Positions 1,423 to 43,572 of a stretch of DNA of 52,049 nucleotides are shown in pieces. Both the position numbers and the translations under genes were made by a program. A model generated the notes under the pieces. It saw only the letters and a program-made list of their open reading frames with translations, made no database searches and was not told the DNA's origin. Origin of the DNA: a virus; the IMG/VR virus record IMGVR_UViG_3300036857_000074, positions 1 through 52,049 of that record, one strand, 5' to 3'. The first letter of the stretch is position 1; each line of letters starts with the position of its first letter.

Positions 1423-2865
1423 TTACGCTGCGATAGCCCGCTCCAGCGGGACCTTGACGATGTCGAGAGCGATCCACTCCGCCACCCGGGAGGTCCGGAG
1501 CAGGACCTGGGCGTGAATCTCGCCCTTGCCCACCGTCTCGACTGTGTTGATACCGGGGTAGCTCGTGTCCACGATGAACCCCTCCGCCGGTGTCTCCCCG
1601 AACAGCGCATTGGCTGCCCAGTATCGCTGACAGACGCCGGTGAGTGCGACGTTGACCCGGCCGAATATCTTGCCACGGCCGTCGATGGTCTGGAAGACAA
1701 AGTCCTCCATGGCGGCGTCGCACTCGTGAGCGACCGCCATGACCACCCTGCTCTCCTGGAAGAACACCCAGTTGGTCTCGTCCTGTCCGGCTGTCGTCCT
1801 GTAGCCGTACGTCCGGACCTGGTTGTTCACCACCTTGGCGAGCGTGACCCCCTGGTAGTTGAGGCTCTCCCGCTCGTCATCGGTGAAGTCCCGTTTGGGA
1901 CCGATGGCCAGCCGAGAGTAGCCCAGGGCTCCGGCCGCGACCTGTGACGGATCGTTCAGCCCGTCCACCCGGGCGATGATGCCCATTTGGACGCCGCTGT
2001 ACGGGACCTCCCAGACGGCCGGTGCGACCTCGCCGGGATAGTCGAGCCGCTGACCCAGGGAGAGGATTTGACGCCCCTTCCCACCCAGCTGAGCGATGCC
2101 ATCCACCGACACTCCCAACTCAAGCGGGTCCGCCGTGTCTGGGAGGTCGAACACCGCCACCCGGTGGTTCTTATCGCAGTGGGCGTCGAGCAGTTCAGCC
2201 GTCGTGGCGTCACTGTCGCCCGGGAACGCCACCTGAGCAGGACCCAACTCGTATCGGAGGGTGTCGAGGGCGGCTCCCAACTCCGCCTGCTCCGGATCGC
2301 CGCCGTCCACGCCTCCGGAGAGGTCCACCGTTTCAGTAGGAGCATCGCCCACCGGATACGTTGGGCTTGCGACCTCTGCCATCGTCACGTAGCTGGACTT
2401 GAACCCGGGAACGTCTGCCGCCACGAGCGGAGCAGATAGCTCCTTGGCCACGCCGTCCTCAAGGACCCGAATCACGTACATCACCGGGTCCGAACCTGCT
2501 GGGAGCCCCTGGGGGTCAATCTCGACGGTGACGTCATTGCCCCACGAGCCGGGGCTGATGGCTGAGATGTCCAGCCAGCCAGCCGCCGTCCCGGTCGCCT
2601 CGACAGCACCACTGGACACTGCTCGCACGACCCACAGGTACAGCCCGCCCTCGTTGAAGAAGCCATACGCCGCCTTGTACATGTCCGGTCCGCCCGCGAG
2701 CGCACCGAACGTGTCCTTGTACTGACGGAACGCCGTGACCTGGACGGGAGTGTTGGCTGGCCCCTTCTCCGTGACCCCAACGATCATTCCCGTCCCGGTG
2801 TTGAGTGCCGGACCCGCCGGAGCGAAGTCATCGAGCACCTGAGTTGTGACCCCTGGTCTGGGCAT
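1423..2865 (-). CDS. Contractile tail sheath protein
   Basis: A 480-residue protein with clear sheath features: N-terminal MPRPGVTTQVLDDF, then GTGMIVGVTEKGPANTPVQV and FGALAGGPDMYKAAYGFF, and a C-terminal half containing RLAIGPKRDF, NNQVRTYGYRTT and WVFFQESRVV, typical of phage sheath C-domains. It forms the contractile outer cylinder around the tube. The ATG at 2865 overlaps the upstream stop by one base (TGATG). Length is normal for Mu/XkdK-type sheaths. This is the strongest single indicator that the phage is a myovirus. Confidence 0.96.
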   Translation of the reverse strand: MPRPGVTTQVLDDFAPAGPALNTGTGMIVGVTEKGPANTPVQVTAFRQYKDTFGALAGGPDMYKAAYGFFNEGGLYLWVVRAVSSGAVEATGTAAGWLDISAISPGSWGNDVTVEIDPQGLPAGSDPVMYVIRVLEDGVAKELSAPLVAADVPGFKSSYVTMAEVASPTYPVGDAPTETVDLSGGVDGGDPEQAELGAALDTLRYELGPAQVAFPGDSDATTAELLDAHCDKNHRVAVFDLPDTADPLELGVSVDGIAQLGGKGRQILSLGQRLDYPGEVAPAVWEVPYSGVQMGIIARVDGLNDPSQVAAGALGYSRLAIGPKRDFTDDERESLNYQGVTLAKVVNNQVRTYGYRTTAGQDETNWVFFQESRVVMAVAHECDAAMEDFVFQTIDGRGKIFGRVNVALTGVCQRYWAANALFGETPAEGFIVDTSYPGINTVETVGKGEIHAQVLLRTSRVAEWIALDIVKVPLERAIAA

Positions 2866-3557
2866 CAATCCTCCTGGTAGTGTTGAACCTCTGCGTCAAT
2901 TGGGACCTTGTCGACGTCAAGCTCATAGCTCTCGACGTATGGCCAGAGCGGCCGGTCAGTTGGCGGATCAGTCTCCGGCGGGTAGATGGGCTCAGTGGGA
3001 CCCGCACCCCACTCCGCGTAGCTGAAGGTCTGGACACGGAAGGAGCAGACAGCCAGACACGTAGTCCGGTCATCCTCGACGGACAGGGCTCCGCCGGGGA
3101 CCTCCGTGAGCGGGTCAACCATCCCCATCACGCCGTCCTCGTCCCGCTGCTGAAGCATGGCGAGCCGGATCGCCAGGCTGTACATTCTCGCCAGCGTAAG
3201 AGCCCGCGGAGCCGCACGGACCTTCTGGCCCTTGGCTACGGCGTGGATGCCCAACTGGATCACCCAGTATGCCATGTACGTTGAAGCACCATCGTCTGTG
3301 CTGTACTTGACGGGCGGCTCCGCTACGCCGTTGTTCACGAGGATGACGCCTGGTAGCTGGTCCTCCGGGAACCGCTCCATGTCGGTCGCGACTCGCCACG
3401 ACCGGACCGGCTTGAGGTGCTCCGGGTCCATCCCAGCCTCCCTGCTGACCTCGTACTGGTAGCTGGGGAGCCACTTCCAGAGGAGGCTCAGGATAGCCGC
3501 CTCGACGTGGTGGGCTCCGGTGAACTCCCCGTACACATGAGTCCGCGTGTAGCTCAT
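2865..3557 (-). CDS. Putative tail terminator / neck protein
   Basis: A 230-residue protein between the gpG-like virion morphogenesis gene and the sheath, the slot normally filled by a tail terminator or second neck protein in Mu-like myoviruses. It is a mixed alpha/beta protein (HHVEAAILSLLWKWLPSYQYEV; TYMAYWVIQLGIHAVAKG) with a proline- and acid-rich C-terminus (IYPPETDPPTDRPLW). The start ATG at 3557 overlaps the preceding gene by four bases. I do not recognise a specific family; the role is inferred from gene order. Confidence 0.6.
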   Translation of the reverse strand: MSYTRTHVYGEFTGAHHVEAAILSLLWKWLPSYQYEVSREAGMDPEHLKPVRSWRVATDMERFPEDQLPGVILVNNGVAEPPVKYSTDDGASTYMAYWVIQLGIHAVAKGQKVRAAPRALTLARMYSLAIRLAMLQQRDEDGVMGMVDPLTEVPGGALSVEDDRTTCLAVCSFRVQTFSYAEWGAGPTEPIYPPETDPPTDRPLWPYVESYELDVDKVPIDAEVQHYQED

Positions 3558-18718: not shown

Positions 18719-19597
18719 TCAGCGGACGAATGCCGCTGTCGGATCAGCCATCCATTCTCGGACCTCGATCTGGTCGAACCGCTCCGCGTCCACCCGCTCC
18801 CGGATCGTACAGCCCCGGTCGAACTCCGCCGTGAATGGGCAACGCCCCAGCGCGTAGCAGACTGGACGGAACAGCGAGGACGCCGCTATGAACTCGTACT
18901 GCCAATTGAGCCCGTACCCCTCGACCGTCTTGCGGTCGCCAGGGAACACCGGCGGCTGGTAGTCCGCGAGAGCCTTGATGATCTGGGCTCCAACGAGCCT
19001 CCACTCAAACTGCGCCTGTGTACAGAGCCGGTTCCCAAGGTGGTCAACCAGGTTCCGGAGGTTGGTCTTGTAGTTCAGCCGGGTCAGGGTGTCGTGTGGG
19101 AGGAGCCCGCGAGCCTCCTCCGCCGGGACGCCGTTTGCGATCAGGCTCTGGTACGCGAGCCAGACAGCCTTCATCGTCGCGCCCCACATCTCCAGAGCCT
19201 GCTTGTTCGACCCGATCAGCGGACCCGGCCGGGCTGCGATGTCCTCCTTGACCGCGAACCGCATCGACTCCTGAGCGTACACCGCCGTCCGCTGGCGGAC
19301 CATTTGGTGCGTGAACGCCCGGGTGACGTTCTCGACCATGAAGTGGAGGTCAACCGCCTCCAGTGGGGCCTTGAGATGGGTTGAGTTGGCCTGCTCCCAC
19401 GCCCACATCCGGTCCTCCTCCGTTAGCTCCCGGAGGTCCCGGATCACCCGCCCCTTGTACATGAATACCATTGCGGCTATGGACCCCAGCGGGTCCGGCG
19501 TAGCGGAGAGCAGCGTGACCTGGGGGAACCCCTGGCCCACCGCCGGTTCCGCCGGGTACATCGCCTTGTCTACGTATGTGCTCACTTCTGCTTTCAT
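18719..19597 (-). CDS. thyX: Flavin-dependent thymidylate synthase (ThyX), divergent motif
   Basis: A 292-residue ThyX homologue that would methylate dUMP using FADH2 and methylene-tetrahydrofolate. The family signature RHR-X7-S appears as RQRTAVYAQES (residues 101-111), with Gln replacing His. Flanking VTRAFTHQMVRQR and SMRFA fit the fold; the C-terminal half includes LPHDTLTRLNYKTNLRNLVD and RPVCYALGRCPF. ATG 19597 follows GGGGACAG. The 5' end is overlapped by 248 bases by the upstream gene in another frame. It feeds the DnaE-based replication block; altered substrate is possible. Confidence 0.88.
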   Translation of the reverse strand: MKAEVSTYVDKAMYPAEPAVGQGFPQVTLLSATPDPLGSIAAMVFMYKGRVIRDLRELTEEDRMWAWEQANSTHLKAPLEAVDLHFMVENVTRAFTHQMVRQRTAVYAQESMRFAVKEDIAARPGPLIGSNKQALEMWGATMKAVWLAYQSLIANGVPAEEARGLLPHDTLTRLNYKTNLRNLVDHLGNRLCTQAQFEWRLVGAQIIKALADYQPPVFPGDRKTVEGYGLNWQYEFIAASSLFRPVCYALGRCPFTAEFDRGCTIRERVDAERFDQIEVREWMADPTAAFVR

Positions 19598-20072
19598 CTG
19601 TCCCCTTCATTCGTTCAAACCTCTCCGCCAGATAGCCCCGGACGTGACGCACCGGATACAGAGCTACGCTCCCGTCCCGGCCGTTGATGACGCGATACCC
19701 GCGGTGGAGGTCGATGATGGTCTGCCTGCTGAGGCTGTAGTCCTGCTGTAGCTGCTCCAGGGTAGCTCCGGCCGCGACCCGCCGGATCAACTGCTCCCGC
19801 ACCGACCAGGCATCGACCCTCAGCTGACTACCGATGCGCTGTAGGTACGTCTCCCTGTTGTACTGCTTCCGGTCCTTGGACTTGTACCACTCCCGGCGTC
19901 GAACCCGGGAGCAGTTGTCGCACTGCGATCTGATGTAGTACACGCCCCGGCCGCGGTGGCGGATCAAGGAGAAGTCCGACACGTGTCGCCACCGGCCGCA
20001 CCGGGTACAGTTCCGCCGACCGCAGACGAGATTGCCTGGGAGCACCACACCATCTGGACGCCGGTGGCTCAT
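19350..20072 (-). CDS. Zinc-finger/HTH protein with long 3' overlap into thyX
   Basis: The frame encodes 240 residues. Residues 15-60 hold CGRRNCTRCGRWRHVSDF and RSQCDNCSRVRRREWY, two cysteine pairs of a treble-clef-like zinc site with a basic end. Residues 95-135 look like a helix-turn-helix (GATLEQLQQDYSLSRQTIID). The last about 80 residues overlap thyX and are Gly/Pro-rich, typical of an alternate reading of GC-rich sequence, so the tail may be unstructured. ATG 20072 overlaps the polymerase stop by four bases. Probably a DNA-binding regulator or nuclease accessory. Confidence 0.65.
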   Translation of the reverse strand: MSHRRPDGVVLPGNLVCGRRNCTRCGRWRHVSDFSLIRHRGRGVYYIRSQCDNCSRVRRREWYKSKDRKQYNRETYLQRIGSQLRVDAWSVREQLIRRVAAGATLEQLQQDYSLSRQTIIDLHRGYRVINGRDGSVALYPVRHVRGYLAERFERMKGTDESRSEHIRRQGDVPGGTGGGPGVPPGHAALRYAGPAGVHSRNGIHVQGAGDPGPPGANGGGPDVGVGAGQLNPSQGPTGGG

Positions 20073-23000
20073 GGAGTGATCACCCAGAGCCTCTTGACGT
20101 TCAGCTTCCGGACCGCCGACCGCGCTGGCTTGGTCGCCTCGACCAGCAGGAGGTCAGAGCCCGTGTTGAACTCCATGATGTGATCCCGGTACATCGGGAA
20201 CCGCCAGCGGTCCACCGTGATGAGGAGTTGGTCGGTGTCGTCCTCGCCCGTCAGCAGCGCCCATTCACGCAGGTGCGGGTCCTTGATGCTCGCCGGGTCC
20301 AACTCGATCCCACGAGCCCGGTTCTGTTCGAATATGTCCCGGATGTTGAGCTTGAGGAACGTCCCCAGCCAGAAGCATTTGACCGCTCGCCCAACCAGGC
20401 TCTCGTCCGCGAGAGCGGTGGACGTGTGGGTGGGGACCGGGAGCCCCATCCCATCACTCCCCTGCTCAAGCCACTCCCGCGTCTGCGCAATGTTCCGGTC
20501 GAGCAGGAACGCCCCAAACGGGTCCTCGTCCGCGAGCCAGGCCTTGATCTTCTCCGCCGTCTTGGGTCCGAACCCCTTCAGCTCAACGATCTGGTCCCAG
20601 CTAGTCGGGTGTCGCTCGCGAGCCCACGCCGCCACAACCGCCGCCGTCTTGGGTCCGATCCCGTTGATGGCTCTGAACCCGGCTCTGATCCCGCCGTGCC
20701 TTCCGACCGGTGACCAGCCCTCCTCGCTCTTGGACAGAGACGGACGCCGGACCCGGATGCGGTGCTTGTCCGCGTCCCGGAGGAGGTTGCGAGTCCGCTC
20801 CGGGTCGCTCGCTGCTTCCGTCAGGCTCGCAGCGTAGAACACGTTGGTGTGATGTTGCTTGAACCACTGGGTGTAGTAGCTGATTAGCGCGTACGCCGCG
20901 CAGTGAGCGGCGTTGAAGGCGTACGCCCCGCTGGTGACCATGTTCCCCCAGATGCGGTCCGCCAGAGCCCGGTCCATCACCCGCTCCGCCCCGGTGAGGA
21001 ACTCGTCCCGCCTTGCCTGGAACTTCTGCTCGCCCTTCTTGAGCGCGATGATCTTGCGAATCTCAGCAACACCCGCGGGCGGGAACCCACCAATCTCACG
21101 AGCCACCTGAAGTATCTGCTCCTGGTACACCATCTGGTATTGAGTGGGAGCCGTGATCCGGTCATACGCCGGGTGGACCCGCTCCGGCTCGCGGAGCCCC
21201 GCCTTGATCTCCGCGTACTCGCGGGCGGCTCCGTTGTGGAGCGGTCCCGGGCGACAGAGGGCGATACAGTCCATCAACTCGCTGAACCGCTCCGGTTGGA
21301 TACCGGCCGTCACGTACCGGGTAGCTCGACCCTCAAACTGGAAGATGCCGGTCAGGTCCCCTGCCCTGAACGCCTCGTACACCACCGGGTCGCCCAAGTC
21401 CAGCGCGTACAGGTCCGCCGCCGTCATCCCGATCCGCTTACAGGCGTCCCACAACATCGACATGGTGTTGAGCCCCAGGAAGTCCATCTTGACGAGCCCC
21501 TGTCGCTCCGCGTCCGGCTTGTCGAGGGCCACGACCTGAACGATCTGTCCCGATCCCTTGGGGACCTCTCGCTCAGCGACCGTCGTGACGCTGGTGATCG
21601 GCTCGTTGGAGAGCACCAGCCCCGCGGCGTGAACACCGAACCCCTTGACGTTGCCTTCCAGCCACGCCCCTTTGGACAGGTCCGGGTTCCGGTCCCAGAC
21701 GGCTCGCGCCTGGGGGAATTGCTCGATGGTGTCCTCAATGGTGCTGCTCGCCCGGAGGTCCCCGCTCGACCGCTCAATGAGGAACTTCTTGAGTTCTTCA
21801 ACCTCCCACTTGGGGATGCGAAACACCCGGGCGATGTCGTCCAAGGAGTTCCGCCCCTTGAACTGGATGTACGTCCCGATGTTGTTGACGCAGCCGGGTC
21901 CCATCAGGTCCTCATAGAACCGCCGGAGCAGCGGGCGAGCCTCGCTGGGGAAGTCCAGGTCAATGTCGGGCAGGTCCTCGCGGGTGACGTCGATGAACCG
22001 CTCAAAGCGGAGGAGCCCCTCAAACTCCCGGCGGAGCGGATCAACCTCCGTGATCTCCAGCAGCCACGCCGCTATCGACGCCGCCGCCGACCCGCGAGCC
22101 GGACCCACCGGGATGCCCAGGCTCTTGATGTGACGTACGCCCGCCGCGACCAGCAGGAAATAGTCAACAAAGTCCTTCCCCTCGATGAGAGCCATCTCGT
22201 GTCGGAGTTGGGCGCTGTACCGTTCCTTCTCCTCGTCAGGGAGCCGGTGGAGTCCACGCGCACGCCAGCCCGTCTTGAGGAGGGTACGCCAATGCCCTGT
22301 CGCTGAGCCCTCGCCGGGCGGGAGCGGGTAGCGGACCATTGGGAGCCGTGGGAGCCGGGCGGAGCACTCCTGGGCAACCTCCTCCGTCGTGACAATCGCC
22401 TCAATTGCCTCCTCCTTGCTCAGTCCGGTAGCTCTCAGCTTCCGGTACACCGTCGCATCGTTTGGTGGTGGGCAGAGTGGAGCACTGTACCCCCACTCCC
22501 GCGCCTGCTCCTCCAGCGTGCGCTTCTCGCCCGGCCGGAGGTTGTGGAGTATCTTCTGGACCTCCGCTTCTTCCAACATCGTGTAGTGGCAGTCGAGCGT
22601 AGCCACGAGCCGGGTCCCGACTGCTCTGGCCAGGCGTCCCGCGAGTGCGTTGAACCGCCGTGTCGTCTCCAACTCCGGGAACGCCTGGACCTCGATCAGA
22701 TAGTTGGAGCCGAACGTCTCCTTGAACAGCTGCGCTATCCGGAGCCCTCTGGCGTAGCTCGCCCGCTCCTGGGGGATACCCTTCCCGCCGACCGTCGCAC
22801 ACGAGAGGAGGCTGCCCTGACAGCCGGACAACACAAGGAGCCCTGCTCGCCGCCGGACGAGTTCGTCCCACGTGACTGTCGGCTCGTAATAAAAGGCACG
22901 CCACGAGCCGGTGACCAGCGCGAGCAGGTTGGCATAGCCGACAGCGTCCTTGGCGATCAACGTCAGATGATGCTTGCGCTGAGTTTCCGTGTTGTCACGC

Positions 23001-23341
23001 CGCCAGAACCGCCCGACTGGCATGTAGACCTCGCAGCCGAACAGAGGCTTGATGCCGCTAGCTTCTGCGGCAAGCTCAAACTTCACGTGGGAGTCGATGT
23101 TGCCGTGTTCGGTGAGGGCGAGAGCCTCCATCCCCAACTCCGCCGCCCGGCGGACGTGAGCCTCAGGCATCCCGTAGCCGTCCAGGTAGCTCAGCGTGGA
23201 GTGGTGATGGAGGCTCGCGAACCGCATTGGCTTCAGGTTCCCGTTCGTGTGACCTCGCCTGCGCAGCGCGAGTCCCGCGGACGAGTGGCCGCCGCCGACC
23301 TTCACTTCATGAGCAGCGAAGTCACCTAGCCTCGCGGGCAT
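20069..23341 (-). CDS. dnaE: DNA polymerase III alpha subunit (DnaE-like) with PHP domain
   Basis: About 1090 residues. The N-terminal PHP domain has [28 protein letters not shown] and GCEVYMPVG. The polymerase core contains [19 protein letters not shown], then [19 protein letters not shown] with the catalytic aspartates, [41 protein letters not shown] and [11 protein letters not shown]. Helix-hairpin-helix motifs ([23 protein letters not shown]) and an OB-like end ([13 protein letters not shown]) follow. ATG 23341 is chosen; GTG 23350 with AAGGAAGG upstream is a good alternative. This is the replicative polymerase, using a bacterial family C enzyme. Confidence 0.96.
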
Positions 23342-23658
23342 CGTGACCACCGGTCCCTTCCTTTGTTGAACATATCGGCTGTGTTGTCCGCATGAGTACC
23401 AAGAAACAGATGTGATGGGTTTACGCACGGAGGATTATCGCAAGAATGAAGCACAAGAACTCCATCTGGAATAGGACCAATGTACAACTCCCAAGCGAAT
23501 CGGTGTGCGTATACAGGTCCTTCATCCCAGCTGACACTGAATCGTCCATAACCGGTGGGAAGTCTTGCTGCCATCCATTCCCAACAGTCTTCATCCGGAC
23601 CTTCAATGAATTTGTTCTCAAATCGAACCTGTGGAGGAATTGCTGTATAGTGTCTCAT
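23326..23658 (-). mobile_element. HNH homing endonuclease
   Basis: A 110-residue HNH protein of the free-standing homing type: [50 protein letters not shown] and [10 protein letters not shown] contain the HNH metal/catalytic pattern. It lies directly before the polymerase gene and overlaps its start by 16 bases. Its DNA is visibly more AT-rich than its neighbours, consistent with independent transfer. It likely cuts a polymerase-proximal site in competing phages lacking it. Confidence 0.9.
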
Positions 23659-23661
23659 CGG

Positions 23662-23856
23662 TCACCCAGTCGGGCGGGCATCACTCTCCTCCTTCTCAAC
23701 CATCGTGGCTCCCATGAACCGGCCGTCGAGCCCTCGTGGATAGCCCTCGATCAGAACCGCCGTGATCGGCTGCTCGCCCAACATCGACTGAAGCCTGGCG
23801 ATCCCCTCATCGTTCATCATCACATCAATCAACAGTCTGATCCTCAAGTCCACCAC
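23662..23856 (-). CDS. Small hypothetical protein
   Basis: A 64-residue protein with a GTG start (23856 or 23853) overlapping the Nmad1-like gene. It has a strand-helix character: VDLRIRLLIDVMMNDEGIAR, SMLGEQPITAVLIEGYPRG. An internal ATG pair (at the MMNDEG position) could be the true start. Nothing identifies a function. It lies between the accessory cassette and the HNH gene. Confidence 0.5.
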   Translation of the reverse strand: MVDLRIRLLIDVMMNDEGIARLQSMLGEQPITAVLIEGYPRGLDGRFMGATMVEKEESDARPTG

Positions 23857-24179
23857 TCTCCATCTCTTGTCGTCTCGCCCTCGATTGCCCTAACCAGGAA
23901 CCCTGCGAAGTTGATCAAGTCGATTGCGTCATCAGCCGGTCCCGGACCGTATGGAATCCCGCCCGGCCACATCGCGTCCCAGAGCCGGTCGGATCGCTCG
24001 CGGATGCGCACCACTACGCCTCGCCAGCCGGACCTCCGCCAGTTGTCGGCGTACCTGACGTTGCGCTCCGCGTAGATGTCGAGAGCCCGGAGCAGGACCG
24101 CTGCCTGTCTGGTCACGTCCTCGCGGCCGGAGTAGCCCATCACCCGGACGCACCGGCGGACCTTGGAGTCAGTCACCAT
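23844..24179 (-). CDS. Nucleotide-modification-associated (Nmad1/DUF1599-like) protein
   Basis: A 111-residue helical protein: VTRQAAVLLRALDIYAERNV, RYADNWRRSGWRGVVVRIRE, RSDRLWDAMWPGG and DDAIDLINFAGFLVRAIEG. The order helix, Y..NWR.SG..G...RI..K/R..RL, then DD.ID..NFAGF is like the Nmad1 (DUF1599) family linked to phage nucleotide metabolism and base modification. The family has a MazG-like all-alpha fold. ATG 24179 overlaps the VOC gene by 11 bases. Family assignment is from memory of the pattern, moderate confidence. Confidence 0.66.
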   Translation of the reverse strand: MVTDSKVRRCVRVMGYSGREDVTRQAAVLLRALDIYAERNVRYADNWRRSGWRGVVVRIRERSDRLWDAMWPGGIPYGPGPADDAIDLINFAGFLVRAIEGETTRDGEWWT

Positions 24180-24504
24180 ACGGCCGGACCTCGACCCTGA
24201 GCCCGAATGCCTCCAGCCAGATACGGCCGGAGCCGGAGTCGCGTGTACACCACTCGCCCGCCCGGAGCCCGTCATAGACCTCCTGAGCGACCTCGACGCA
24301 GAAGTGACCTAGCCCCAACGCTACGGCGTCCCGCCCCACCAGGTGTAGGTAGATATGGTCTTGGCTGCGAAACCACCGGAGAGGCCAGGGAGCGGGCTCT
24401 AGAGGCACAACCTCGCGGAACCCCAGCACCAGCAGGAACTGCGAGATGCGCGGGTCAGCCAGCTGGTCCGCCGGTAGCTCGTATGTCAGGTGGTGGAAGC
24501 TCAT
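24169..24504 (-). CDS. VOC/glyoxalase-like fold protein
   Basis: A 111-residue protein with the beta-alpha-beta-beta-beta pattern of vicinal-oxygen-chelate domains: SFHHLTYELPADQLADPRIS, QFLLVLGFREVVPLE, DHIYLHLVG, ALGLGHFCVEV and RIWLEAFGLRVEVRPYGD. His residues at HHL, HIYLH and GHF, with a late Glu, could bind metal, but ligands are not certain. ATG 24504 shares a base with the preceding stop. It could act on a small molecule in the adjacent redox cassette or be a binding protein. Confidence 0.6.
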   Translation of the reverse strand: MSFHHLTYELPADQLADPRISQFLLVLGFREVVPLEPAPWPLRWFRSQDHIYLHLVGRDAVALGLGHFCVEVAQEVYDGLRAGEWCTRDSGSGRIWLEAFGLRVEVRPYGD

Positions 24505-24851
24505 CAGTCCTCTCGCCACTCCCACGAGTCGATTGTGCGACCGCCGATCCCCCAGACGGGAATGGGCCAGTCCAGATACGGAAACATGTTGGAACAAGCA
24601 GCTACAGCCCACTCCGCCATCTTGTCAGGTGAATCGTGATCGCCCAGGAACGGAAGTTGGACTCTGAGCGGCTCATGTTCGTCGCTCTCCTTCCGCCTGC
24701 TTGACCTGGCTATCTGAGCTGCGCTCACGTACTCGCCGGACTTGTCAACGCCTTTGTCGATCAGCTCAGCAAAGTGGACGTTAGCCGCAACCAACTCGAC
24801 TGTCTTGACTGCCTTGCCAATCTTCTCCATCTTCTGAGTACTGGCCTTCAT
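24504..24851 (-). CDS. Hypothetical protein in accessory cassette
   Basis: A 115-residue protein; ATG 24851 follows GGAGG and overlaps the SDR stop by four bases. The N-terminus is helical and basic (MKASTQKMEKIGKAVKTVEL), followed by a YVSAAQIARSSRRKESDEHE segment and a Trp-rich end (NMFPYLDWPIPVWGIGGRTI). No family recognised. Coupling to the SDR gene implies co-expression. Confidence 0.55.
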   Translation of the reverse strand: MKASTQKMEKIGKAVKTVELVAANVHFAELIDKGVDKSGEYVSAAQIARSSRRKESDEHEPLRVQLPFLGDHDSPDKMAEWAVAACSNMFPYLDWPIPVWGIGGRTIDSWEWRED

Positions 24852-25540
24852 CGTGATCCTCCATACAAATTGATTCCTGATCCTGCTGTCCACTTGGCGG
24901 CCGGTTCCGTCAGCAGCCAATACACGACCTCCGCGACCTCGCCCGGCGTCAGGTGGTCGTTCATCCGGAGGTCCCGCCGCTGGTACAACTCCGCCTCCTC
25001 CCGCGTCATCCCTCGCGTCCTCATCAAGTTCTCCACGACCCGGGCTCCCATGGGCGTCGATGGGACGTGGAACGGATGGACCACGTGGAAGTAGAACATC
25101 GGGACCAACTCCCAGGCTAGCTCCTTCACCGCCGCCGCGAGCCCCGCCTTGGCTGCGCAGTACGCCGCCCCGTTGGTCAGCGCGTGATCGTGGGCATACG
25201 AGCCCAGCAGGACAACGCTCCCGCCCAGATCACCCCGCTCTTGGACATATACCTTGGCTGCCATAAGCGGGAGTGTTAGACAGGCTCGTATCACGTCCGC
25301 GATGTCGTCCTCGTCCGCGTCCGGGAAGGGCACCATCCGGGTCGCGCCTAGCGTGATGACCATGGCGTCAAATTCCCAGTAGTTCAGGTTGGTGGGGATA
25401 CGGTACACCCCATCATCACTCCGACAATCGTCACTCTCCACGGTCCAGCCCCAATGACTCAACTCGTCCCGGATCGCCGCTCCGATGTTCTCCTCCTCCG
25501 TCCTGCTCGCTCCCAGCACCACTGCGTTCATCTCGCCCAT
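24848..25540 (-). CDS. Short-chain dehydrogenase/reductase (SDR)
   Basis: A 230-residue Rossmann enzyme. The N-terminal strand and cofactor loop are AVVLGASRTEEENIG; the catalytic set is Ser114 (LLGSYAH), Tyr127 and Lys131 in YCAAKAG, the classical YxxxK. FDAMVITLGATR is equivalent to the NNAG region, and the end TEPAAKWTAGSGINLYGG matches the SDR C-terminus (TG..I.VDGG). It would reduce or oxidise a small alcohol/ketone with NAD(P)(H). ATG 25540 has GAGGAG upstream; the 5' end overlaps the HAD gene by 110 bases. SDRs are uncommon in phages. Confidence 0.85.
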   Translation of the reverse strand: MGEMNAVVLGASRTEEENIGAAIRDELSHWGWTVESDDCRSDDGVYRIPTNLNYWEFDAMVITLGATRMVPFPDADEDDIADVIRACLTLPLMAAKVYVQERGDLGGSVVLLGSYAHDHALTNGAAYCAAKAGLAAAVKELAWELVPMFYFHVVHPFHVPSTPMGARVVENLMRTRGMTREEAELYQRRDLRMNDHLTPGEVAEVVYWLLTEPAAKWTAGSGINLYGGSR

Positions 25541-26183
25541 CTCGTCTCCTCATCATCATGTACAGGATTCCATCTGTCGCCTCGTCCAGCCGGTTGTACT
25601 CCAGCCCCTCCCACTCCGCCGCCCTGTTCCATCGCGTCCGGCGGAGCACCGGGACGCCCAGCCCCAACTCCTCCGCCCGCTCCAGCACCCAAGGGAGGTC
25701 ATCGAGGACCGCCACCACTCGCCGCGGGTCGATGCGATCCACGAGGGTGGACAGCTTGTCGTGACCGAACAGGAGCCCATCGAACTCGATGCGGTTACGC
25801 CGGGTCCACTCGACCGTGTCCGGATCAATCCGGTCATACCGCTCGTGAGGGCGGGTCGTGGTGAGCCAGACCTCTGCCCCGGCGTCCCGGAGGCTCCTCA
25901 CGAGCGGGCTCGCGCCCGGGTACACGCCCATCGTCCGCTTCATCCCGCCCTGCCTGTACGCCAGCTTGATCGCCCGGAACGTCGAGAGATCGATGTTGTA
26001 CACGTCGCACATCCACTCGCGGAACCGCGGATGACCGGTGTACTCCTCGCGTCCACGCGGCTCGTACCCCAACCAGCTGCTCGCGAACTCGATGAAGTGA
26101 GGGTGATATGGCGCCATGGTTCCGTCGATGTCGATGGCCACGACCGGTGCGACCGGCTCTGAGCATCTTGAGCACAGCATCAT
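25431..26183 (-). CDS. HAD-superfamily phosphatase-like protein
   Basis: About 250 residues. After an N-terminal CSRCSEP cysteine pair comes VVAIDIDGTMAPYHP (Asp18, Asp20), the HAD motif I. EVWLTTTRPHERYD supplies the motif II Thr, KLSTLVDRI a possible motif III Lys, and VVAVLDDLPWVLERAEELG the motif IV acids. It probably hydrolyses a phosphate from a nucleotide or sugar. The last about 37 residues overlap the SDR gene and are low complexity. ATG 26183 overlaps the preceding stop. Confidence 0.8.
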   Translation of the reverse strand: MMLCSRCSEPVAPVVAIDIDGTMAPYHPHFIEFASSWLGYEPRGREEYTGHPRFREWMCDVYNIDLSTFRAIKLAYRQGGMKRTMGVYPGASPLVRSLRDAGAEVWLTTTRPHERYDRIDPDTVEWTRRNRIEFDGLLFGHDKLSTLVDRIDPRRVVAVLDDLPWVLERAEELGLGVPVLRRTRWNRAAEWEGLEYNRLDEATDGILYMMMRRRDGRDERSGAGSEQDGGGEHRSGDPGRVESLGLDRGE

Positions 26184-26929
26184 GTAACGTTCTCCATCAA
26201 CTCCTCCACACGTTGATATGACTGGTCGAGCAGGACACCTGGCTTCCAGGTCCCGAACCGGCCGTTGCGCATCACGTTGGGGTGGCAGTCGCAGTCCGTC
26301 TGGACTACCTTGAACCCCTTCCGGCGTCTCCACACCCCGGGATCGCGAGCGCACTCCGTCACCCGGTGACCGAACAGGTCTTGCGCCCTGTACCAGTGGT
26401 CCTGCTCCCGGCCGTTGTACAACACGGAGTTCTCCACAACCTCGTCCGGAGCACCATCAATGAGCCAGATGTCCGTCTGCTCAAAGATATGGCCGCCCTC
26501 GCACAGCGCCCACGCCGGAGCCGTATTGATCACGAGCCCGTACCGTTTCAACAGCCCTCGCACCACTACGGCATTGACTCGCAGCGTCTGAACACGGTCC
26601 CCATACCGTCCCCACAGTGCCCCGTACGCGGGTGCGAGAGCCCACGCCGGGCGGAGCCCCTCATCAAACCGGTCCCACGAGGTTGAGCGGACCTCGCCGT
26701 ACACCTTCCGCGAGTACACCGCCGCCGTTCCAACCTTCTTGAACAACAGATAGGCGTCCGGGAGCCGGTGGGTGATGTCCGGGATCGCGGAGTGTAGGAA
26801 CACGCCCTGGGCCATTGGGGACGGTCCCGGCCGCTCGCTGTAGATGTCCGCCGTGAGCCCTGCTCGCTCGATGGCGTGGGCGGACAAGAGCCCGGCCGGA
26901 CCGCAGCCGATCACCGCGGCGTCACCCAT
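26180..26929 (-). CDS. FAD/NAD(P)-binding Rossmann oxidoreductase
   Basis: A 249-residue protein with a clear dinucleotide-binding start: AAVIGCGPAGLLSAHAIERA (GxGxxG at residues 8-13) followed by TADIYSERP with the acidic end of strand 2. Later segments include VNAVVVRGLLKRYGLVINTA, resembling the FAD-binding second strand. The C-terminus GRFGTWKPGVLLDQSYQRVE resembles phage FAD proteins. The catalytic domain is reduced compared with monooxygenases. ATG 26929 overlaps the DUF5659-like gene by eight bases. Substrate unknown; it heads a cassette with HAD, SDR and VOC genes. Confidence 0.8.
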   Translation of the reverse strand: MGDAAVIGCGPAGLLSAHAIERAGLTADIYSERPGPSPMAQGVFLHSAIPDITHRLPDAYLLFKKVGTAAVYSRKVYGEVRSTSWDRFDEGLRPAWALAPAYGALWGRYGDRVQTLRVNAVVVRGLLKRYGLVINTAPAWALCEGGHIFEQTDIWLIDGAPDEVVENSVLYNGREQDHWYRAQDLFGHRVTECARDPGVWRRRKGFKVVQTDCDCHPNVMRNGRFGTWKPGVLLDQSYQRVEELMENVT

Positions 26930-27215
26930 CCGCCGCCTCCTCTGAATCCATGTAGCCCAGGAACCGGTGTAGCTCGTTGCGGGCCACCCGGATCGCCCTC
27001 GCGTACCGGCGTGGTTCGACCTCCGCCTCACCAGCCCGGTACTCCTTCAGCAGCGCACTGAACCGCGGTCCCGCGCTGAACACCCACTCGACCTCCTCCT
27101 TGTTCGTAGCCGGGTCCTCGATGACCTCCATCGTCATGTGCCGCATCCCCTTCATCATCAGGTACGCGGCAAGCGGGAGGTCGCCTGTTCTGAATACGTC
27201 CTCTGTCTGTTCCAT
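26922..27215 (-). CDS. DUF5659-like small protein
   Basis: A 97-residue protein: VFRTGDLPLAAYLMMKGMRH near the N-terminus is the hallmark of DUF5659-type proteins (F.T.DL.LAAYL...G), followed by EWVFSAGPRFSALLKEYRAG and a helical tail RYARAIRVARNELHRFLGYM. ATG 27215 is used since GGAG lies six bases upstream. These proteins are common in phage replication regions; the role is unknown. Confidence 0.72.
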   Translation of the reverse strand: MEQTEDVFRTGDLPLAAYLMMKGMRHMTMEVIEDPATNKEEVEWVFSAGPRFSALLKEYRAGEAEVEPRRYARAIRVARNELHRFLGYMDSEEAADG

Positions 27216-42237: not shown

Positions 42238-43470
42238 CTAAACCACTGTAAAGCTCATGTTCGGACCTGGCGCCGGCATGGGTACGGCACCAGCCAAAAC
42301 GATGTCTCCAGCCGTCCAAACTGAGTCACTCGACTTCTTGAGCGACACGTTCTGAACCCAGTGAATCCCGCTCGCCCGGTTGAGCCAGTCGACAGCCTCA
42401 TACAGCCGCACCCGGTCGTCCATCGCCCAGTTCACGGTCGATGTCGTCCCGGGTACGAGCCCCCACTGTTCGGGTCCCAGCCAGAGGTTCATTTGGTCGA
42501 TGGCCTGCTGGATCGCGTCCGCGTCGGTGACGCCCGGGTAGGGATGAATCTCCGCCTGAACGTCGATGGCTGTGTACACCCCGTTCTCGCCCGGTGAGAT
42601 CACGTACTCCAGGAAGTTGACTTCACGGTTCGCGTCCAGGTCCTCCCAGACCTCCTGAAGCAGCGAGTCCGGCGGAGCCGCCCCGCCTTCCGCCGTGACC
42701 ACGACCGTGACGCACCGCTCGACGTTGGTATGTGAAGCGGAGTCCCGCGGGAGCCCGTACCCACCCTCAACCGTCGATGGCTGGTACAGGTCGATGGCGA
42801 TAGCTCGCCCCACGAGCGGGTTCAGCAGGGCTCGATTGGCGTGGTCCACCGGGAGAATCGGCCGGGCGGTGAGGACAGACAGGTACGTCGAGAACCGCCC
42901 CAGGTAGTCAAGCGGGTCCTCCGCGTCACTCCCGCCGGTCGTGGTGCTCACCGTGATCTTGGAGAGCCCGTCAAATGCCTCCTGCGGGTCCGCGTCTCCA
43001 AAGCAACCATTCTGGGCGGAGCCGACTTCGCTGGCGATCACGTTGGCCCCGGCTACAACGCCGCCGCCCTCCGGAGCGTACACGTCCCGGTCCAGCTCAA
43101 ACAGGTAGCTCGCCCCGCTGGGGTGGAGCAGCGCAACCTCCGTCCCCTCCGGGACCATCGTGGCCGGGGTGTCCGCCGCGAACTCGACCGTGGCCGCTCC
43201 GATGGATGAGGAGCCGTCGAGCATGGGGAGCCCGTAGATGGTTGTGCCCAGGTACGTCATCGCCTCGTCCGGAACGCCACTGGCCTGCTCGATGACCTCG
43301 CTGGCCATCTGACCGTTGGCTTCCATCATGATGGTCTCCGGAGAGCCCGGCCGCGACACCCAGCCGGGTATCGCCGCTTCCATGTATTCGATGGAGTACA
43401 GCGTCAACTGATCGCTGTCCATCATCAGGTCGAGGTCGGTGTACTCCGTGGCGTCGACAAGGTCGCTCAT
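42238..43470 (-). CDS. Baseplate J-like protein
   Basis: A 410-residue protein of the gpJ family: SIEYMEAAIPGWVSRPGSPE, TIMMEANGQMASEVIEQASG, GAATVEFAADTPATMVPEGT, GSAQNGCFGDADPQEAFDGL and LDYLGRFSTYLSVLTARPIL reproduce the usual J order. It forms baseplate wedges with gp25 and gpI. ATG 43470 is preferred; the frame is open to a TTG at 43482 inside the repeat element. No strong Shine-Dalgarno is seen. Confidence 0.86.
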   Translation of the reverse strand: MSDLVDATEYTDLDLMMDSDQLTLYSIEYMEAAIPGWVSRPGSPETIMMEANGQMASEVIEQASGVPDEAMTYLGTTIYGLPMLDGSSSIGAATVEFAADTPATMVPEGTEVALLHPSGASYLFELDRDVYAPEGGGVVAGANVIASEVGSAQNGCFGDADPQEAFDGLSKITVSTTTGGSDAEDPLDYLGRFSTYLSVLTARPILPVDHANRALLNPLVGRAIAIDLYQPSTVEGGYGLPRDSASHTNVERCVTVVVTAEGGAAPPDSLLQEVWEDLDANREVNFLEYVISPGENGVYTAIDVQAEIHPYPGVTDADAIQQAIDQMNLWLGPEQWGLVPGTTSTVNWAMDDRVRLYEAVDWLNRASGIHWVQNVSLKKSSDSVWTAGDIVLAGAVPMPAPGPNMSFTVV

Positions 43471-43572
43471 GTTCTCTGCCAATCTCTGGGTTGCGGGTGT
43501 GGGGTCTGGACTAGGACCCAGGGGTAGGGCTCGCGTTGGCAGAGGCAGTGCCGTACGTGGCCAGGCATTGGC
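43471..43572 (-). promoter_or_regulatory. Composite repeat element 9 before baseplate J
   Basis: A 102-bp gap flanked by inverted arms CTCTGCCAA (43474-43482) and TTGGCAGAG (43536-43544). Between them lie GGGTCCTAGTCCAGACCC (43503-43520), itself a hairpin, and a GC-rich spacer. This is the most complete member of the family and could fold into a large cruciform or RNA structure. Confidence 0.55.

Follow-up and report, generated by a model that had tools for sequence, protein, structure and literature searches.

The 52,049-base IMG/VR virus record IMGVR_UViG_3300036857_000074, a soil phage sequence referred to over its whole length as the window, carries on its minus strand a cassette of six open reading frames (ORFs) between positions 23844 and 26929, encoding in order a FAD-binding protein, a HAD phosphatase, a short-chain dehydrogenase/reductase (SDR), a 115-aa protein, a VOC-like protein and an Nmad1-like protein (Table 1). 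The layout of consecutive, overlapping genes described in the original prediction is borne out, as all six ORFs are present and in order, with overlaps of 4 nt (FAD/HAD), 110 nt (HAD/SDR), 4 nt (SDR/115-aa), 1 nt (115-aa/VOC) and 11 nt (VOC/Nmad1). They belong to a longer minus-strand series that starts with a DUF5659-like gene and continues past the cassette through a small gene (g8) and an HNH endonuclease gene to the replicative polymerase gene dnaE.

Table 1. Features of the cassette region in the window, in order along the minus strand.
Feature	Position	Strand	Matches and remarks
DUF5659-like gene	26922..27215	-	PF18903 1.1e-4, slightly under cut-off; overlaps FAD start
Small FAD-binding protein, 249 aa	26180..26929	-	phrog_8720 9.4e-39; UDP-galactopyranose-mutase-like fold
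HAD phosphatase (NT5C / PNK-phosphatase-like)	25431..26183	-	PF00702/NT5C ~1e-3; phrog_415 8.6e-15
Short-chain dehydrogenase/reductase	24848..25540	-	adh_short_C2 2.9e-12; S-Y-K intact
115-aa protein	24504..24851	-	no Pfam/PHROG/NCBIfam match
VOC-like protein, putative fold	24169..24504	-	slot of VOC-like family in related cassettes; kept in L009
Nmad1/DUF1599-like all-alpha protein	23844..24179	-	PF07659 through relatives
Small protein g8	23662..23856	-	kept only in L009
HNH_3 endonuclease	23326..23658	-	PF13392 1.3e-14
DnaE-type DNA polymerase III alpha	20069..23428	-	constant downstream neighbour; start 23428 or further in
ThyX-like protein	18719..19597	-	phrog_85 8e-23; RQRX7S replacing RHRX7S

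The same set of genes recurs in many related loci and is not peculiar to this phage. Gene content was counted over 68 related loci with at least 4 kb of downstream sequence, related phages being treated as independent: HAD is present in 66, the Nmad1-like gene in 62, SDR in 26, VOC in 11 and a methyltransferase in 10, all counted genes share the strand of the FAD gene, and DnaE closes the series in every locus. FAD-HAD-Nmad1-DnaE is the commonest order, and gene order is maintained at ~30% protein identity. VOC occurs only where SDR does (11/11, p=5e-6) and the methyltransferase accompanies SDR in eight of ten cases (p=0.005), both values without correction for phylogeny. Microbacterium phage Ajin repeats the order of the window (FAD-HAD-SDR-VOC-Nmad1-small gene-DnaE), and the nearest relative (locus L009) keeps FAD-HAD-SDR-VOC-Nmad1-g8-DnaE-ThyX; in comparison with this relative the dN/dS ratio is 0.13-0.42 for cassette genes and 0.10 for DnaE, and the cassette genes are under purifying selection. 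Reduced forms include FAD-ThyX-Nmad1 without HAD in Krampus and FAD-methyltransferase-Nmad1 in Terapin. Because a similar Cas4-ATPase-DnaE backbone is found in Gordonia phage HubbaBubba with no cassette genes annotated, we regard the cassette as a separable unit; DnaE is found in 1252 phage records as against 120 for the FAD protein. The proposal that the genes form one unit, for which a gene-neighbourhood search had been suggested as a check, is thus upheld by co-conservation in dozens of divergent phages and by the fusion of HAD and Nmad1 in some of them.

Two further observations concern these loci. Contig IMGVR_UViG_3300046533_000294 (129.8 kb) carries two divergent cassette copies with DnaE (L013 and L016), which would mean two replication modules in one phage unless the contig is a joined one. 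A hypothetical family with the motif FEMPPW..D.DV..SH lies ~0.1-1.3 kb upstream of FAD in 39 loci (e.g. L001:7862-8407) and downstream of FAD in Terapin; it has no Pfam match and was undetected in the window.

The cassette extends to phages of Proteobacteria. A fold match between the FAD protein and a protein of Pseudomonas phage PA5 (E 5e-10) pointed to Pbunavirus, in which a FAD homologue occurs with ThyX, a protein joining an N-terminal HAD to a C-terminal Nmad1-like domain, an epsilon exonuclease and DnaE; Pseudomonas phage PB1 has this set without SDR and VOC. In Escherichia phage FEC19 (Wifcevirus) and Serratia phage MyoSmar the order is FAD-ThyX-HAD·Nmad1 (fused)-SDR-VOC-exonuclease-DnaE. 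HAD and Nmad1 are a single protein in a Rhizobium phage as well as in PA5, PB1, FEC19 and MyoSmar; ThyX lies next to it or nearby, and the fusion is seen across Pbunavirus, Wifcevirus and Myosmarvirus phages. Searched with models of the actinophage cassette proteins, FEC19 and MyoSmar gave 159-165 bits for SDR and 90-96 bits for VOC, bit scores being the measure here since E-values refer to a set of ~30 proteins; the scores of FAD (8-14 bits) and of Nmad1 (17-27 bits) are weak by themselves, and these two assignments depend also on fold, motif alignment and synteny. By tblastn, relatives of the fusion occur in 444 records (some HAD-only) and FAD relatives in 359, among phages of Pseudomonas, Escherichia, Serratia, Xanthomonas, Pantoea and other hosts. 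The match to FEC19 and MyoSmar is the strongest single result of this analysis and, judged from sequence comparison, the set in the window is an ancient functional unit. Where PB1 has one 333-aa ORF for the FAD protein, PA5 has two, of 280 and 53 aa (L174:34570-35570), through a frame change or a sequencing error.

The first cassette protein had been described as an FAD-binding oxidoreductase. Its FAD site stands, as the GxGPAG motif is intact, while the oxidoreductase label is generic for a protein whose fold resembles that of UDP-galactopyranose mutase (UGM; Glf), and phrog_8720 is annotated as of unknown function. Foldseek searches with the AlphaFold2 model (pLDDT 96.3) returned UGMs as 17 of the best 20 PDB matches (E down to 4.9e-9, TMq 0.52-0.60), followed by VioD and aromatic hydroxylases. 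The likeness lies in the overall flavoprotein fold; the cassette protein is ~120 residues shorter (249 aa vs 367) and agreement between the sequence profiles is limited to the FAD-binding N-terminus, where hhalign against 14 UGMs aligned 31 columns (prob. 18.8), and membership of the UGM family was rejected on sequence. The model thus suggests a protein that is UGM-like in fold, resembling a shortened UGM without the sequence signature of that family. Since UGM itself is non-redox, a redox reaction in the cassette is not established by this protein. Homologues are present in 120 isolate records, every one an actinobacterial phage, and in 80 IMG/VR loci; a single-sequence scan of viruses gave no match, whereas a profile scan succeeded. 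A scan of 84,980 bacterial and archaeal genomes with one degenerate profile-derived pattern found no relative, which suggests, on the basis of that one pattern, that the protein is restricted to phages.

The HAD phosphatase was correctly named, as its PF00702 and phrog_415 matches are accompanied by intact catalytic DxDGT, TTR, K and DD motifs, with D18, D20, T109/T110, K143 and D162 invariant in the alignment. Its match to the NT5C family PF06941 is weak (19.3 bits against a cut-off of 24.8; 0.001), that of the homologue in phage KandZ lies over the cut-off (31.9 bits, 1.5e-7), and the PA5 HAD matches HAD_PNKP (1.1e-10); by sequence, the protein appears to sit between NT5C deoxynucleotidases and the phosphatase domains of polynucleotide kinase (PNK). 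Relatives were found by tblastn in 77 phage records. The assignment of the last gene as Nmad1/DUF1599-like holds at the level of the family, which shares a motif and an all-alpha character with PF07659 and is matched by it in 7 of 30 relatives (best 4.7e-5), but the window protein itself falls below detection, with no direct Pfam match, and the function of Nmad1 is itself predicted only. Two subfamilies of these proteins are homologous (hhalign 95.7%). The AlphaFold2 model has four helices (pLDDT 92.8), and a fold search gave no match at E<0.001, with HisE, DCTPP1, S-2L MazZ and iMazG among the weak ones; the protein is a possible relative of all-alpha nucleoside triphosphate pyrophosphohydrolases, its modelled fold bearing a faint resemblance to MazG.

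Among the remaining genes, the SDR has the intact S-Y-K triad reported for it, and S114, Y127 and K131 are invariant in the alignment. The VOC assignment fared less well: the slot is kept, and the window protein is 81% identical in L009 (dN/dS 0.31), but it has no Pfam or PDB match. Relatives of a distinct VOC-like family occupy this slot elsewhere, and Glyoxalase_4 matches two of ten of these at 0.013. An attempt to align the window protein with that family gave no credible register, and its VOC identity is at most plausible. Searches of phages by tblastn with the SDR, VOC-like, Nmad1-like and 115-aa proteins gave no match, the sequences being too diverged. A hidden Markov model of the 115-aa protein retrieves only itself and its gene is absent from L009, and both this gene and the HNH_3 gene are clearly insertions in the window. 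The latter, located between the cassette and DnaE, overlaps the annotated DnaE start, was not found in L009 and is likely a mobile insertion outside the pathway; the DUF5659-like gene, present in 6 of 89 loci, is probably outside the cassette core.

The cassette lies in a neighbourhood of deoxynucleoside triphosphate (dNTP) metabolism and replication, marked by DnaE and ThyX and, in other phages, by dCTP deaminase, uracil-DNA glycosylase (UDG) and MazG; dCTP deaminase lies within the cassette in 11 of the 68 loci and UDG in 14, and 11 loci have both between Nmad1 and DnaE. ThyX itself is altered in these phages. The His of its RHR motif is replaced by S, Q, T or N in all 35 readable copies from cassette loci, and by T or N in the four copies from proteobacterial cassette phages (39/39 in all). 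RHR is kept in five of five control phage ThyX proteins, which were not each checked for absence of the cassette, and is likewise read in ThyX of M. tuberculosis and Thermotoga in an alignment of PDB sequences.

The reading that we tentatively prefer, at somewhat short of an even chance, builds on what was observed: the content and order of the genes, their purifying selection, HAD fused to Nmad1 in other phages, the fold classes of the FAD and Nmad1-like proteins, the SDR triad and the consistent change in the ThyX motif. In this reading the cassette would be a pathway remodelling deoxypyrimidine nucleotides in replication, most likely one that provides the neighbouring DnaE with a modified dNTP. 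The variant ThyX would make or alter a 5-substituted dUMP, and the UGM-like flavoprotein would act on that nucleotide or its substituent, helped in larger versions of the cassette by SDR, VOC and methyltransferase. HAD and Nmad1 may clear unmodified or mis-modified nucleotides, and DnaE would incorporate the product, by which the genome might be helped to evade restriction. A fuller version, which we consider doubtful, has an undescribed deoxypyrimidine made via His-less ThyX and a minimal UGM-like flavoenzyme, tailored by SDR, VOC and methyltransferase while HAD and Nmad1 clear the unmodified nucleotides; it would be common to actinobacterial and proteobacterial phages and would explain the resistance of Wifcevirus. 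Wifcevirus isolates are reported, in a summary that does not name each system, to be insensitive to the restriction–modification systems tested except EcoP1_I, and their protection is unexplained (PMC11990801), for which the cassette is a concrete candidate cause; the 56.6 kb genome of FEC19 has 10 EcoRI and 9 EcoRV sites.

Several points weigh against a modified DNA base. As HindIII, MspI and HpaII cut Pbunavirus DNA (PMC11945000) and EcoRI/HindIII/XbaI maps of it were made (PMC6521218), it is unlikely that every T or C carries a bulky modification in Pbunavirus, an argument limited by the lack of SDR and VOC in that genus. We give less weight to the Pbunavirus ‘resistance’ in the former report (PMC11945000), because many of the ‘resistant’ enzymes may lack sites in PB1, which has 0-3 sites each for BamHI, KpnI, XhoI, SmaI, BglII and XbaI, and such site avoidance suggests that restriction is still effective on these phages. 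Rebooting of Pbunavirus genomes has also succeeded with DNA made in yeast (PMC10913387); the first round can therefore proceed without any modification there may be. The match of the Nmad1-like fold to MazG is weak, with no E below 1, and the altered ThyX could have come down with a single replication lineage and be unlinked to the cassette. Among the conserved cassette genes there is no glycosyltransferase, DNA-base transferase or nucleotide kinase. Sites for BamHI, KpnI, SmaI and XhoI are nearly absent from both PB1 (L177/L178) and FEC19 (L175/L180), where those for EcoRI, EcoRV or HindIII are plentiful.

The neighbouring genes for ThyX, dCTP deaminase, UDG, MazG and nucleotidase would also suit nucleotide-pool housekeeping without DNA modification, in which dUTP and dTTP are balanced via ThyX, nucleotidase and pyrophosphohydrolase with folate or flavin cofactor reductases, and pteridine-reductase-type enzymes are indeed among the many weak SDR matches. 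This is possible, if on the unlikely side, as it explains neither a flavoprotein that is confined to phages and supplemented by SDR and VOC nor the restriction resistance of Wifcevirus (PMC11990801). We think it improbable that the cassette is a sugar-nucleotide pathway, in which an unusual (furanose) donor for glycosylation of DNA or virion would be made by the UGM-like enzyme together with SDR, methyltransferase and HAD; the best PDB fold matches and the naming of proteobacterial homologues as UGM by two annotators speak for such a donor, but the profile alignment confined to the Rossmann N-terminus, the shortness of the protein and the lack of a conserved glycosyltransferase in the cassette speak against it. 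There is similarly little likelihood that the cassette serves nucleic-acid end repair or counter-defence, with HAD as a PNK-type 3'-phosphatase and the rest in NAD or nucleotide salvage: the HAD_PNKP match in PA5 and that of the window HAD to phrog_415, a polynucleotide kinase family, are offset by the missing kinase domain, by the NT5C matches of actinophage HADs such as that of KandZ and by the lack of an RNA ligase among annotated neighbours. That unrelated accessory genes merely hitch-hike in a conserved replication region, as one early block and the insertions in the window might suggest, is very improbable and already largely contradicted by the recurrence of the set in both actinophages and enterobacterial phages, the HAD-Nmad1 fusion, the restriction of VOC to loci with SDR and a similar backbone without the set.

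If it remodels deoxypyrimidine nucleotides, the cassette would be a variant within the phage pathways that modify nucleotides or remodel their pool. Z-genome phages (2-aminoadenine; PurZ, MazZ, DatZ) similarly combine a premodified dNTP, clean-up by pyrophosphohydrolase or phosphohydrolase and a phage polymerase, but their enzymes differ, no PurZ was seen here, and the neighbourhood of the cassette is one of pyrimidine and not purine metabolism. Hypermodification through 5-hydroxymethyldeoxyuridine in M6, ViI and PhiW-14 likewise joins a step of the thymidylate synthase superfamily to accessory enzymes in phage operons, but uses a ThyA-type hydroxymethylase where the cassette phages have ThyX; neither this enzyme nor 5-HMUD kinase or aGPT-PPlase was found among the part of the window genes scanned with PHROGs. 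In the annotation of Xenia2, covering Gordonia cluster DV and Mycobacterium cluster D (PMC11385102), the genes are catalogued singly as phams. Oxidoreductase, phosphatase, methyltransferase, FabG-like reductase, DnaE and ThyX are common across these clusters, as in the cassette, but that annotation is gene by gene, with no proposed pathway and no link to proteobacterial phages, and a literature search excluding subscription journals found no paper that treats the cassette as a system. Hundreds of phages, among them the therapeutic Pbunavirus group, carry these hitherto unexplained enzymes, which can now be read as one pathway; a new base, if it exists, would add a route of DNA modification, reveal a divergent chemistry of ThyX and show the UGM fold put to a new use. 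Finally, tail sheath and baseplate wedge genes (window positions 1423-2868 and 42238-43482) identify the window phage as a myovirus, which here carries a replication module otherwise seen in actinobacterial siphophages.

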